Assembly: GCA_005862225.1 (NCBI GenBank)
Contig: SZXV01000009.1
Location: 186,001 to 250,000, forward strand
DNA: 64,000 nucleotides
Source: Chlorobium sp.
GTDB taxonomy: Bacteria; Bacteroidota; Chlorobiia; Chlorobiales; Chlorobiaceae
Direction of reading: 5' to 3'
In this document: in pieces, positions 44,508-61,817 of the stretch
How the letters are laid out: every line of letters begins with the position of its first letter
How positions within the stretch are numbered: the stretch's first letter is position 1
The notes under the pieces: model-generated
Databases searched by the model: none
What the model was told of the DNA's origin: nothing
What the model saw: only the letters and a program-made list of their open reading frames with translations
Program-made: the position numbers and the translations under genes

Positions 44508-44915
44508 TCAGTAGGGAATATAACGCAACCTCAGGACTGAACCATCCTGATCACTCTCAAGCCCAATTATTTCTGCAATACTTTTTATAATATAGAGACC
44601 CCTCCCGGATAATTTGAAACGATTCTCGGTATCAACGGGATTTGGCAGTTCATCAAGATTAAATCCTTTACCGCAATCCCTGACAGAAGCCAAAAGAATA
44701 TTGTCTGCCGCACTCAACCCGCAGGAGACCGCCATATCGCTTCGCTCCCTGTTTCCATGTCTGATTGCATTGACAAAAGCCTCTTTGATGGTCAACTGAA
44801 GCTCCTCAACAAATCCGACACTATACCTCTCACTTGCTGCAAATGATTCAATAAAACCTTGTAACACTCTATATTCGGAATAGAGCCCAGGTAATATTAT
44901 ATCAGCTCGTTTCAT
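44508..44915 (-). CDS. Anti-sigma factor kinase-like ATPase (RsbW/HATPase_c)
   Basis: A 135-residue GHKL-type ATPase: ELQLTIKEAFVNAIRHGN (N-box near residues 38-55), VRDCGKGFN (G1 box) and LSGRGLYIIKSIAE (G2 box). This is the RsbW/SpoIIAB kind of Ser kinase/anti-sigma factor, partner of STAS-domain antagonists; a STAS protein is encoded at 61254 in this window. The start at 44915 is chosen because upstream codons are not family-like. It lies about 60 bases upstream of pgi, same direction. Confidence 0.82.
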   Translation of the reverse strand: MKRADIILPGLYSEYRVLQGFIESFAASERYSVGFVEELQLTIKEAFVNAIRHGNRERSDMAVSCGLSAADNILLASVRDCGKGFNLDELPNPVDTENRFKLSGRGLYIIKSIAEIIGLESDQDGSVLRLRYIPY

Positions 44916-45169
44916 GAGTGTCAACTCCTGATTATCTGCCTTATGATTCAAACGCTGAAATGTACAACGAAACAAGAGAGCTGCCAAAATACGTCAAAAA
45001 GAGACCGAGCCTTAATTATTAAGATAATAAAAATATACGCCTTAATAAAATTAGCTTTTTGACAGGAAAAATCAATTATTTATATTCAGTAGTTAAAAAT
45101 CTCTTTAAAGAGGGGAAAAGTCAATACAATACGACACAACCTACAATAATAATACAGAAAGATAGAACA

Positions 45170-57768: not shown

Positions 57769-59529
57769 ATGGAGCAGCTCAACATCCTTGATTACAGCTT
57801 TATCGTCGGCTATCTGGTACTGACGCTTGTTATCGGTCTGTGGTTCTCCTCACGCGCCTCGAAAAATGTCGGAGAGTTTTTTCTTTCGGGGCGCCAGCTC
57901 CCCTGGTGGATTGCCGGTACAGGTATGGTAGCAACAACCTTCGCTGCCGACACTCCCCTTGCGGTTGCAGGATTTGTGGCCAAAAACGGCATCGCCGGCA
58001 ACTGGGTGTGGTGGACCTTTGTTTCAGGCGGGATGTTGACGGTCTTCTTTTTTGCACGACTCTGGCGTCGGGCAGAGATCCTGACCGACCTTGAATTCAT
58101 TGAACTCCGTTACAGTGGCAGGGCGGCAAGATTTTTGCGCGGGTTCAAAGCCATCTATTTCGGACTTTTCATCAATGCCGTCATCATCGGATGGGTCAAC
58201 CTCGCCATGTTCAAGATTATCAGAATCATGGTGCCGGAACTTAATCCCGAGCTGGCCATTGTCATTCTTGTCCTCCTGACCACCTTTTATTCAGGCCTGT
58301 CAGGGCTCTGGGGAGTATCCATCACCGATGCGGTGCAGTTTGTTATTGCCATGGCAGGCTGTATCATTCTGGCCGTCCTGGCAGTTCAGTCACCTGCTGT
58401 TGTTTCGGCAGGAGGGCTTACCAAAGCCCTGCCAGCCTGGATGTTCGATTTTTTCCCAACCTTCACCTCGGCATCAGGCAAAAGCATCTCAGGAACAATT
58501 GCCCTGCCCTTCATCTCATTTGCGGCAATGGCGTTTGTCCAGTGGTGGTCATCATGGTACCCCGGATCTGAACCGGGCGGCGGAGGCTATATCGCCCAGC
58601 GCATGATGAGCGCCAAAAATGAGAAGCACTCATTGCTTGCTACACTCTGGTTTACGGTCGCCCACTATTGCCTGAGACCATGGCCATGGATCATTGTCGG
58701 GCTGGTCAGCCTCGTGATGTTTCCGGATCTTCCTTTGAACCAGAAAGAGGACGGCTTCGTCTACGTCATGAAAGCGGTGCTGCCGCCAGGACTCAAAGGG
58801 CTTCTTATTGCTGCTTTTCTTGCCGCCTACATGTCAACCCTGTCAACTCACCTTAACTGGGGAACAAGTTATCTGATCAATGACTTCTACAGACGGTTTC
58901 TGAAAAAGGATGGGAATGAAAAACACTATGTGACCATTTCCAAAATAACCACTTTTTTCACAGCGGCATTTGCCCTTTACATCACCTTCTTTGTGCTTGA
59001 CACCATCACTGGCGCATGGGAATTCATTATCCAGTGCGGTGCGGGAACCGGTTTTGTTCTTATCCTTCGCTGGTTCTGGTGGAGACTGAACGCATGGTCA
59101 GAAATCACCTCTATGGTGGCGCCGTTCATTGCCTTCACCTGGATACAACTCTTTACCAGCATCACTTTTCCATTTTCAATTTTTATTATTGTCTCCTTTA
59201 CCATTGCAGCTACCCTGCTTGTCACCTTTCTGACTCCTCCGACTGAAACCGCACAGTTGGAGACATTCTATCGCACCACAAGGGTCGGAGGGGTGTTCTG
59301 GAACAAGATTTCAAAAAATCTTCCTGATGTTGTTTCAGACACCGGCTTTGTCATGCTTTTTGTTGACTGGGCACTCGGCATAATAATGATCTATGCCATC
59401 CTTTTCGGCACCGGGAAATTTATTTTTGGCGACATCTTCCAGGGCTCGCTCTTTCTTGGCACAGGAATAATTGCCGGATCCCTCATTTTTGCAGACCTGA
59501 ACCGACGGGGCTGGAACAACCTGAACTGA
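57769..59529 (+). CDS. Sodium:solute symporter family protein
   Basis: A 586-residue membrane protein of the SSS family (LeuT fold) with about 13-14 hydrophobic helices. Features include ASKNVGEFFLSGRQLPWWIAGTGMVATTFAADTPL near the start (SSS signature-like), PGSEPGGGGYIAQRMMSAKNEKHS and LLIAAFLAAYMSTLSTHLNWGTSYLINDFYRRF near 345-375, where the conserved Ser/Thr of the Na+ site lie. Substrate might be a sugar, amino acid or other solute. Its place after a PfkB kinase hints at sugar or nucleoside uptake. Confidence 0.85.
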   Translation: MEQLNILDYSFIVGYLVLTLVIGLWFSSRASKNVGEFFLSGRQLPWWIAGTGMVATTFAADTPLAVAGFVAKNGIAGNWVWWTFVSGGMLTVFFFARLWRRAEILTDLEFIELRYSGRAARFLRGFKAIYFGLFINAVIIGWVNLAMFKIIRIMVPELNPELAIVILVLLTTFYSGLSGLWGVSITDAVQFVIAMAGCIILAVLAVQSPAVVSAGGLTKALPAWMFDFFPTFTSASGKSISGTIALPFISFAAMAFVQWWSSWYPGSEPGGGGYIAQRMMSAKNEKHSLLATLWFTVAHYCLRPWPWIIVGLVSLVMFPDLPLNQKEDGFVYVMKAVLPPGLKGLLIAAFLAAYMSTLSTHLNWGTSYLINDFYRRFLKKDGNEKHYVTISKITTFFTAAFALYITFFVLDTITGAWEFIIQCGAGTGFVLILRWFWWRLNAWSEITSMVAPFIAFTWIQLFTSITFPFSIFIIVSFTIAATLLVTFLTPPTETAQLETFYRTTRVGGVFWNKISKNLPDVVSDTGFVMLFVDWALGIIMIYAILFGTGKFIFGDIFQGSLFLGTGIIAGSLIFADLNRRGWNNLN

Positions 59530-60117: not shown

Positions 60118-60157
60118 GCAAGCAGAACAAAATCCGGAACCATTTGTGCCGACAAGC

Positions 60158-61090
60158 ATGCACTCAACTTCAGAACCGCCAGTCATTGTCATTCTTGGCC
60201 CTACCGCTTCCGGCAAATCCGCTTTTTCCATTGCTTTGGCAAAAAAAATCGGAGCGGAAATCATTTCTGCTGATTCAAGACAGATCTACAGAGAACTGAA
60301 CATTGGCGCAGCAAAACCGCCACCTGAAGCGCTTCAGGAGGTGAAACATCATTTTGTCAATGAGAAAAATATTGGCGAGACATTTTCCGCAGGCGATTTT
60401 GCCACCGAAGCCATCGAACGAATCCATGATATTCGTCAGCGGGGAAAACGTGCCATTATTGCAGGAGGCTCGACTCTCTATCTTGAAGGGCTCCTGAAAG
60501 GGTTTGCTGATTTACCTCCCGCAAGCCCTGAAATACGCGCAAGGCTTTTGCTCGAGCTGAACAGTATGGGAAAAGAATGGCTTTACGACAAGCTGCTCCA
60601 AAAAGATCCTGAACAGGCCGCGACACTTGACCCCACAAAAACCCAACGACTTATTCGAAGCCTTGAAATCATTGAACTGACAGGAGTGAGCGTTACCGAA
60701 CTGCATGCTAAAGTCAAACAAAAAAGCGGCTTGCACTTTTTGACGACAGGAATTTCTATGCCCCGGGAAATACTCTATCAGCGCATCAACCAGCGTACCG
60801 ATACCATGATAGAAGAAGGGCTGTGCGAAGAGGCCGAGCTCCTGTATCACAAGTATGGCAAACTCTTTGCCGATCAAAAAATATCCGCCTTGCAATCTGT
60901 GGGATATCAGGAGCTGTTTCATTATTTCGACCGATCCATTGACTTCGCTGAAGCAGTCAGACTGATAAAACAACATACTCGCAACTATGCCAAACGCCAG
61001 TTGACTTTTTTCAACAATCGTCTTTCCGTAAACTGGATGGATATCGATATTCTTTGGAACAAGTTGGAAAACATTAATTTTTGGGGTTAA
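60158..61090 (+). CDS. miaA: tRNA dimethylallyltransferase
   Basis: A 310-residue enzyme adding a dimethylallyl group to A37 of tRNAs reading UNN codons. ILGPTASGKSAFS (P-loop) near residue 15, IISADSRQIYRELNIGAAKP near 38, IAGGSTLYLEGLLKG near 100 and LIRSLEIIELTG near 165 are family features; the C-terminal QHTRNYAKRQLTFFNN is also typical. I prefer the ATG at 60158 over the upstream GTG at 60146. Last gene of the GH13 - pfkB - SSS - maf - miaA run. Confidence 0.95.
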   Translation: MHSTSEPPVIVILGPTASGKSAFSIALAKKIGAEIISADSRQIYRELNIGAAKPPPEALQEVKHHFVNEKNIGETFSAGDFATEAIERIHDIRQRGKRAIIAGGSTLYLEGLLKGFADLPPASPEIRARLLLELNSMGKEWLYDKLLQKDPEQAATLDPTKTQRLIRSLEIIELTGVSVTELHAKVKQKSGLHFLTTGISMPREILYQRINQRTDTMIEEGLCEEAELLYHKYGKLFADQKISALQSVGYQELFHYFDRSIDFAEAVRLIKQHTRNYAKRQLTFFNNRLSVNWMDIDILWNKLENINFWG

Positions 61091-61253: not shown

Positions 61254-61817
61254 ATGAAACACTCAACATCAACCCGCAAAGAGTTAACTATTCTGAAAAT
61301 CGAGGAAGAGGTATTCGATTTTCGTCATAAAGAGTCATTCAAGCAGACTATTGACAGTATGGTTAACAAGGAAAGCAGCAAAAACCTGATCATTGATTTC
61401 TCCCAGGTTAAAGCCATTGATTCCTGCGGAATCAGCTCAATGTTGCTCGCCCACCAACTTGCCAATCAGTCAACCGGACTTGCCATTTTCGTTTCTCTCT
61501 GCAAGCAGATCAAGGATCTTCTGAAACTGACTAATCTGGACAAACAGCTTTACATTTTTTCTTCCATCAATGAGGTGGTGACCCTGATTGAACCGGCAAT
61601 GAAAACAAAACGAGGCGGCAGGGGAAAAGCACAGGCTCCTGCTGATGAAATCATCGATGAACTCCTCTGCGATGAACTCGATCTGATCGTTGAGCCTGAC
61701 CTCCATGACGAACATCTTGTTGAACAGGATGAGATTCCTCATGATTCAGATATTTCCGATTCTCTGGCAGAAAAAGAGCCTGGATTAAAAAAAAGGGGGC
61801 GACCAAAAAAAAATTGA
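61254..61817 (+). CDS. STAS-domain protein with basic AT-hook-like tail
   Basis: A 187-residue protein. Residues ~10-115 are a STAS (anti-sigma antagonist) domain: LIIDFSQVKAIDSCGISSMLLAH contains the conserved Ser region phosphorylated in SpoIIAA/RsbV proteins. After it comes KRGGRGKAQAP, an acidic linker (DEIIDELLCDELDLIVEPD) and a terminal KKRGRPKKN, both ends resembling AT-hooks. A DNA-contacting tail on a STAS domain is unusual. A partner could be the RsbW-like kinase at 44508. Confidence 0.82.
   Translation: MKHSTSTRKELTILKIEEEVFDFRHKESFKQTIDSMVNKESSKNLIIDFSQVKAIDSCGISSMLLAHQLANQSTGLAIFVSLCKQIKDLLKLTNLDKQLYIFSSINEVVTLIEPAMKTKRGGRGKAQAPADEIIDELLCDELDLIVEPDLHDEHLVEQDEIPHDSDISDSLAEKEPGLKKRGRPKKN

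Follow-up and report, generated by a model that had tools for sequence, protein, structure and literature searches.

Organization of the locus

The initial annotation of the window (the whole stretch of Chlorobium sp. DNA that was analyzed, 64,000 nucleotides) placed at 61254-61817 an open reading frame whose product has a STAS domain with the conserved serine region, followed by the basic sequence KRGGRGK, an acidic linker and KKRGRPKKN. This description was borne out, as the coordinates and strand are right, the gene encodes 187 residues from an ATG start, the STAS domain is recognized by Pfam (E = 1.1e-12) with its serine, Ser57, invariant among orthologs, and KRGGRGK (residues 119-125), the acidic linker and KKRGRPKKN (residues 179-187) follow one another in the tail. 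The features of the gene, its upstream neighbor and a candidate partner are as follows.

61254..61817, + strand: whole gene for the STAS protein with an AT-hook tail (P0001), an open reading frame of 187 aa with an ATG start
61254..61589, + strand: STAS domain, residues 1-112, with a SpoIIAA/RsbV-like fold (Pfam STAS, AlphaFold, Foldseek)
61419..61430, + strand: D-S-C-G, residues 56-59, in which Ser57 is the predicted phosphorylation site (conservation, and an analogy with SpoIIAA and RsbV that we take to hold)
61602..61628, + strand: first basic cluster, KTKRGGRGK, residues 117-125 (conservation, pN/pS)
61629..61787, + strand: acidic linker, predicted to be disordered, residues 126-178 (pLDDT, net charge, pN/pS)
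61788..61814, + strand: C-terminal AT-hook, KKRGRPKKN, residues 179-187 (conservation of KKRGRP and RGRP, pN/pS)
60146..61090, + strand: miaA (IPP transferase), the upstream neighbor, which anchors orthology across the order (Pfam IPPT)
44508..44915, - strand: orphan RsbW-like kinase (HATPase_c_2), a candidate partner, with its likely start at the ATG at 44915

The main gene, so called here in distinction from a paralog, is carried by 83 of the 86 genomes of the family and by all 65 of those with a completeness of 90% or more and a contamination of 5% or less. Chlorobaculum thiosulfatiphilum has an ortholog (L122), and one is also expected in Chlorobaculum tepidum.

The STAS domain and its conserved serine

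Pfam STAS (PF01740) covers residues 7-107 of the window protein with 48.1 bits against a cut-off of 22.6, and with a profile built from 26 relatives TM1442, TM1081 and SpoIIAA were among the nearest PDB sequences. In the AlphaFold model the block means of confidence are above 90 for residues 1-110, and the tail is of low confidence and has no secondary structure. Foldseek matches to this model include 4xs5, 1vc1, 1th8 and 6m36; the search groups it with a Dyadobacter STAS protein, TM1442, the SpoIIAA+SpoIIAB complex and the RsbV+RsbW complex. Within the domain, D56, S57 and G59 are invariant in all 50 aligned sequences (37 of 37 from the genus and 13 of 13 more distant, with the three paralog sequences L037-L039 set aside), and Ser57 in this D-S-x-G motif occupies what we take to be the position of Ser58 in SpoIIAA and Ser56 in RsbV. 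The window protein falls below the curated cut-offs of the anti-anti-sigma models, scoring 41.2 against 53.45 for TIGR00377 and 41.5 against 114.75 for TIGR02886. When three relatives were scanned with TIGR00377, two passed (L043 at 54.2 and L056 at 54.3) and one, L041, failed at 51.1. Judged by its sequence and predicted fold, the domain is of the anti-sigma-antagonist type.

A paralog, that is, a second STAS copy, is present in 11 of the 86 family genomes. Seven paralog loci were read (L037, L038, L039 and L131-L134), two of which are the same contigs met twice, leaving five distinct sequences; in these DSTVV, DATVV or DPTVV replaces D-S-x-G, and in four of the five the hook is altered. With Ala or Pro at the serine position, a paralog would be unphosphorylatable there. 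Copies without the canonical motif count in favor of an alternative, which we regard as doubtful, that the protein is a nucleoid- or DNA-associated STAS protein working outside an RsbW partner switch, dimerizing or binding some other protein with Ser57 in a structural role. The invariance of Ser57 throughout the main lineage argues against it.

Conservation of the C-terminal hook

KKRGRPKKN consists of an RGRP core with flanking basic residues and occurs as a single copy at the very C-terminus of the window protein. It scores below the cut-off of the Pfam AT_hook model (PF02178; 10.1 bits, E = 0.87, against 17.4). A loose coding pattern for K-[RS]-G-[RS]-P shows no enrichment in the genome to which the window belongs (10 matches against 18 in the reversed control); three of the ten loci give [KR]RGRP within a reading frame of 80 aa or longer, and the motif is C-terminal in the window gene only. 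Rarity of the motif was therefore dropped as an argument, and its significance rests on conservation instead.

Among 37 genus sequences (from 36 of the 37 genus-level genomes, our own included, with three paralog sequences set aside), K179-K180-R181-G182-R183-P184 (KKRGRP) is invariant and K185 and K186 are each kept in 36, while the linker preceding the hook varies. Across the family, RGRP is kept in 82 of the 83 genomes with the main gene; this figure is drawn from the 86 family genomes, and a separate hook count of 71 of 72 is biased, coming partly from the best 80 matches of a list limited in length. A strict hook pattern is found in frame in the main gene in 73 of the 83 genomes. Its 78 matches, against 7 in the reversed control, fall 74 times in the main gene, twice in the paralog and twice elsewhere, and they translate to KKRGRPK in 76 cases and to KKSGRPK in two. 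Nine of the remaining ten genomes carry RKRGRPKK, KKRGRPRK or KKRGRPNR, and the tenth, G101 (L096 / L240), is the sole family member without RGRP, its protein ending in KKSRRTSRSKKA, which is still basic. A near relative of G101 (L099 / L239) carries KKRGRPNRSKK.

When the codons of 36 sequences were compared (without the paralogs L037-L039 and without L021, which lacks its start in the match), pN/pS came to 0.030 in the hook (residues 179-186), 0.155 in the STAS domain, 0.273 in the first basic cluster and 0.483 in the linker. Synonymous change is much the same throughout, with pS about 0.7 in all regions; for the hook codons pS is 0.73 and pN 0.022, and the Arg, Gly and Pro residues of the hook use almost every synonymous codon. 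Of these four regions the hook is under the strongest constraint. This is the opposite of what the initial annotation had named as the mark of low-complexity drift, namely a tail that is not conserved in orthologs. That KKRGRPKKN should be a compositional accident without function might be argued from the AT_hook score below cut-off, the loose pattern being outnumbered in the reversed control and the loss of the RGRP core in G101; the strength of purifying selection on the hook at near-saturated synonymous change and the retention of RGRP across the family make such drift scarcely credible, and we rejected it on this codon-level conservation.

Both basic segments had been described as AT-hook-like, a term that stands for KKRGRPKKN with its conserved RGRP and not for KRGGRGK, which is without an RGRP core. 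In the genus sequences K117 and R120 are each present in 37 of 37, Arg or Lys occupies position 123 in 37 of 37, and K125 is kept in 35 of 37. Judged from these residues, the first cluster is conserved as basic residues and not as an AT-hook.

The linker between the two has AlphaFold block means of 43-51 and carries a net charge of -12 to -25 in 72 unique family proteins, with the split point chosen for greatest contrast. In the larger comparison of 85 unique proteins, reduced from 123 sequences that were taken in part from the best 80 matches, the linker ranges from -12 to -42 and the end from +1 to +23, again at the split of greatest contrast (the paralogs L037-L039 and L131-L134, the truncated L066 and the fragment L053 were dropped). 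The acidic-then-basic order of the window protein's tail was matched by 75 of 20,000 shuffles of that tail. Charge segregation of this kind, even as measured at a contrast-maximizing split, would also suit a basic end that contacts no nucleic acid but turns back onto the acidic linker or attaches to an acidic partner protein, for example to autoinhibit the STAS domain. A purely electrostatic role would tolerate exchanges of Lys, Arg and Pro, and KKRGRP is the same in all 37 genus sequences while the linker drifts; we consider this explanation quite improbable.

Tails outside the family and the miaA neighborhood

In three sister families of the order the orthologs share this STAS domain, D-S-x-G included. 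Their linker is more acidic (-18 to -42) and their end is rich in Lys, Ala and Ser (+9 to +23), by eye resembling the tail of histone H1; one of these tails weakly matches a valine-tRNA ligase model. As to the combination of STAS domain and hook, which the initial annotation had proposed to look for across Chlorobiota, RGRP is nearly universal in the family (82 of 83 genomes) and is found in none of the 12 unique sister-family proteins.

The sister-family proteins are orthologs by place too, and not by sequence alone, because all 12 sister-family loci (L041-L052) have miaA upstream in the same orientation. The distance from start to start is about 1.2 kb or less in 11 of them and 4.1 kb in L043; the synteny comparison took loci of at least 5,000 bases, and the shorter L051 was checked separately. 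Within the family, 65 loci, which include some contigs counted twice, have at least 1.5 kb of upstream sequence, and in 46 of these miaA is upstream on the same strand (within 1.5 kb in 34), with no miaA in the available upstream stretch of the other 19.

The adjoining gene encodes a tRNA-modifying enzyme, the sister-family tails are generic Lys/Ala/Ser-rich sequences of which one weakly matches a tRNA ligase model, and a review devotes a section to RNA binding by AT-hooks (PMC11354804). All of this would fit a tail that binds RNA (tRNA, rRNA or mRNA) and couples the STAS switch to RNA or ribosome function. We think this unlikely, as the RGRP core and its flanking lysines agree with the minor-groove consensus for DNA, TPKRPRGRPKK, given in that review (PMC11354804), P184 is invariant in the 37 genus sequences, and miaA was not found upstream in 19 of the 65 family loci.

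Elsewhere in the phylum, a further family (f5; L054-L056) has a STAS domain and an acidic tail with short basic clusters, and the other relatives that were read (L057-L064) end soon after the STAS domain. Outside f1-f5, most of the matches listed phylum-wide extend over roughly the first 115 profile positions. Taken together, the sister-family, f5 and phylum tails suggest that, among the sequences compared, the acidic tail belongs to this lineage and the basic end of the lineage changed type at least once.

Some other neighbors of the STAS gene may be recorded. Directly after it, on the same strand and within about 20 bases, L041, L043, L137 and L056 have a symporter-like (sodium/solute) gene; those of L041 and L043 show 24-25% tblastn identity to the window ORF 57769-59529, and those of L137 and L056 were named by eye. 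The window ORF itself, also named symporter-like by eye, stands upstream of the STAS gene instead. In L056 and L057 the place of miaA is taken by two genes, one of 669 aa (DNA-ligase-like by eye) and one of 179-180 aa, which the STAS gene closely follows.

A candidate kinase partner

The RsbW-like kinase that had been noted at 44508 is real, an open reading frame at 44508-44987 on the minus strand that matches HATPase_c_2 with E = 3.8e-19. As listed it starts with TTG. The listed frame is probably over-extended and the start is probably the ATG at 44915, since orthologous matches mostly set in at query residues 15-30 and several of the earlier-starting ones contain stops.

Three STAS matches in the same genome exceed the cut-off, namely the window protein, a SulP-like transporter (named by eye) and a stand-alone protein on contig C5, with two further matches below it. 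For HATPase_c_2 two proteins exceed the cut-off, the orphan kinase of the window and one encoded directly behind the C5 STAS gene, and four further matches lie below. A single SpoIIE-type phosphatase was found, encoded on C5 about 4 kb away from the STAS/kinase pair of that contig. The genome also has four sigma70-region-2 matches over the cut-off. Beside the C5 pair is a further gene, L154:351-1448, whose product is by eye an ABC-transporter-type ATPase with a weak HATPase_c_2 match in its C-terminal part (E = 6.3e-4, below cut-off); a fusion of a transporter ATPase with an RsbW-like domain in a partner-switch cluster is possible.

Of the 83 family genomes that carry the STAS gene, 74 also have an ortholog of the orphan kinase (both at E ≤ 1e-15), a distribution that weighs against a role outside an RsbW partner switch. 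The other nine, including the single-contig G062, have no kinase ortholog at this threshold, which counts in favor of such a role; five of the nine belong to a second genus in which kinase scores are low, and for which the threshold may be too strict. In two genomes the kinase is present and the STAS gene absent. Where both genes are on one contig (29 genomes) they are divergent in every case and 14-37 kb apart, and in G038, which is outside the family and consists of one contig, the best STAS and kinase matches are nearly 400 kb apart. Linkage was set aside as proof of pairing: the region shows general synteny, so it counts weakly, and it fits conserved gene order as well as it fits a pair. 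The only other kinase over the cut-off sits behind the only other stand-alone STAS gene, which leaves the window STAS protein and the orphan kinase as the remaining pair, and this elimination among matches over the cut-off, together with linkage, makes it plausible, if indirectly, that the two are partners.

A proposed switch on the nucleoid

We favor, with moderate confidence, the reading that the window protein is a DNA-tethered partner-switch protein, its STAS switch anchored by an HMGA-type AT-hook. It probably works tethered to DNA because the hook motif is better conserved than the STAS domain, and as the tail-conservation test favored the hook, a STAS phospho-switch with a DNA- or nucleoid-binding tail is the best reading of the sequences; the coupling of the two is itself a proposal. 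The folded STAS domain would bind an RsbW-like kinase, for which the orphan kinase at 44508-44915 is the best candidate, and phosphorylation of Ser57 would switch the domain off, as in SpoIIAA and RsbV. The disordered tail, with its acidic spacer and terminal AT-hook, would hold the protein in the minor groove of AT-rich DNA, so that partner capture and release by the switch would take place on the nucleoid or at certain promoters.

This proposal draws on the fold found by profile and model, the invariant Ser57, the predicted disorder of the tail, the extreme selection on the hook and the H1-like tail of the sister families. From these we infer DNA binding, phosphorylation, the identity of the kinase and a regulated target. 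Several points count against it: a single AT-hook usually binds weakly, the AT_hook and TIGR00377 scores are below cut-off, nine of the 83 genomes are without a detected kinase, the phosphatase is near the other pair, and the linkage may be plain synteny.

We suggest more tentatively that phosphorylation of the nucleoid-bound protein toggles the recruitment of a partner at AT-rich sites, and that one orthologous lineage has exchanged its DNA anchor, with an H1-like tail in some members and an HMGA-type AT-hook in others, as a natural counterpart of the tail swap engineered in CarD. A family-wide STAS protein in which the hook is the most constrained region suggests that the nucleoid can be the site of such a switch in green sulfur phototrophs, and the natural set of orthologs with AT-hook and H1-like tails offers a test of whether charge and disorder suffice for DNA anchoring in bacteria.

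Comparison with known systems

SpoIIAA and RsbV (TIGR00377 / TIGR02886 / PF01740) are soluble and exert their effect by way of a kinase/anti-sigma factor. The window protein shares with them the STAS fold, the D-S-x-G motif and the presence of an RsbW-like kinase in the genome. It differs from them in its length (187 aa against about 115), with an added acidic linker and AT-hook, in a kinase gene about 16 kb away and not adjacent, and in scores below the TIGR cut-offs.

WhiB7 of mycobacteria is not known to have a STAS domain or an acidic linker. It bears a C-terminal RGRP AT-hook on a small regulator and, unlike the window protein, is a [4Fe-4S] WhiB protein that occurs in actinomycetes only, according to the account of it in PMC10727445. 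The hook of the window protein has no Pro before RGRP, in which it departs from the classical consensus TPKRPRGRPKK as the review gives it (PMC11354804). Each module of the window protein is known, and for the combination of STAS and AT-hook we found no report in the open-licence PMC literature, nor one on anti-sigma factor antagonists or STAS proteins in Chlorobium or on anti-anti-sigma factors in Chlorobaculum tepidum; for anti-sigma factor antagonists together with AT-hooks we found there the WhiB7 paper only (PMC10727445), which concerns an unrelated architecture.

The CarD protein of Myxococcus xanthus, in the passages that describe its layout, has a folded protein-interaction domain, an acidic segment and a disordered RGRP tail (PMC4374960, PMC8156234), and HMGA or H1 can take the place of this tail, the tails being interchangeable (PMC8156234). 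The window protein has the same order of parts, likewise with AT-hook and H1-like tails as alternatives. The N-terminus of CarD is an RNA-polymerase-binding CarD domain, whereas that of the window protein is a STAS domain, and no CarD (CarD_CdnL_TRCF) match was found in the window protein among Pfam matches up to E = 1. Moreover, CarD has four hooks and the window protein one, and the exchange of tails was engineered in CarD, whereas in Chlorobia it is found on natural orthologs. By analogy, the window protein, though not a CarD, may work like one.
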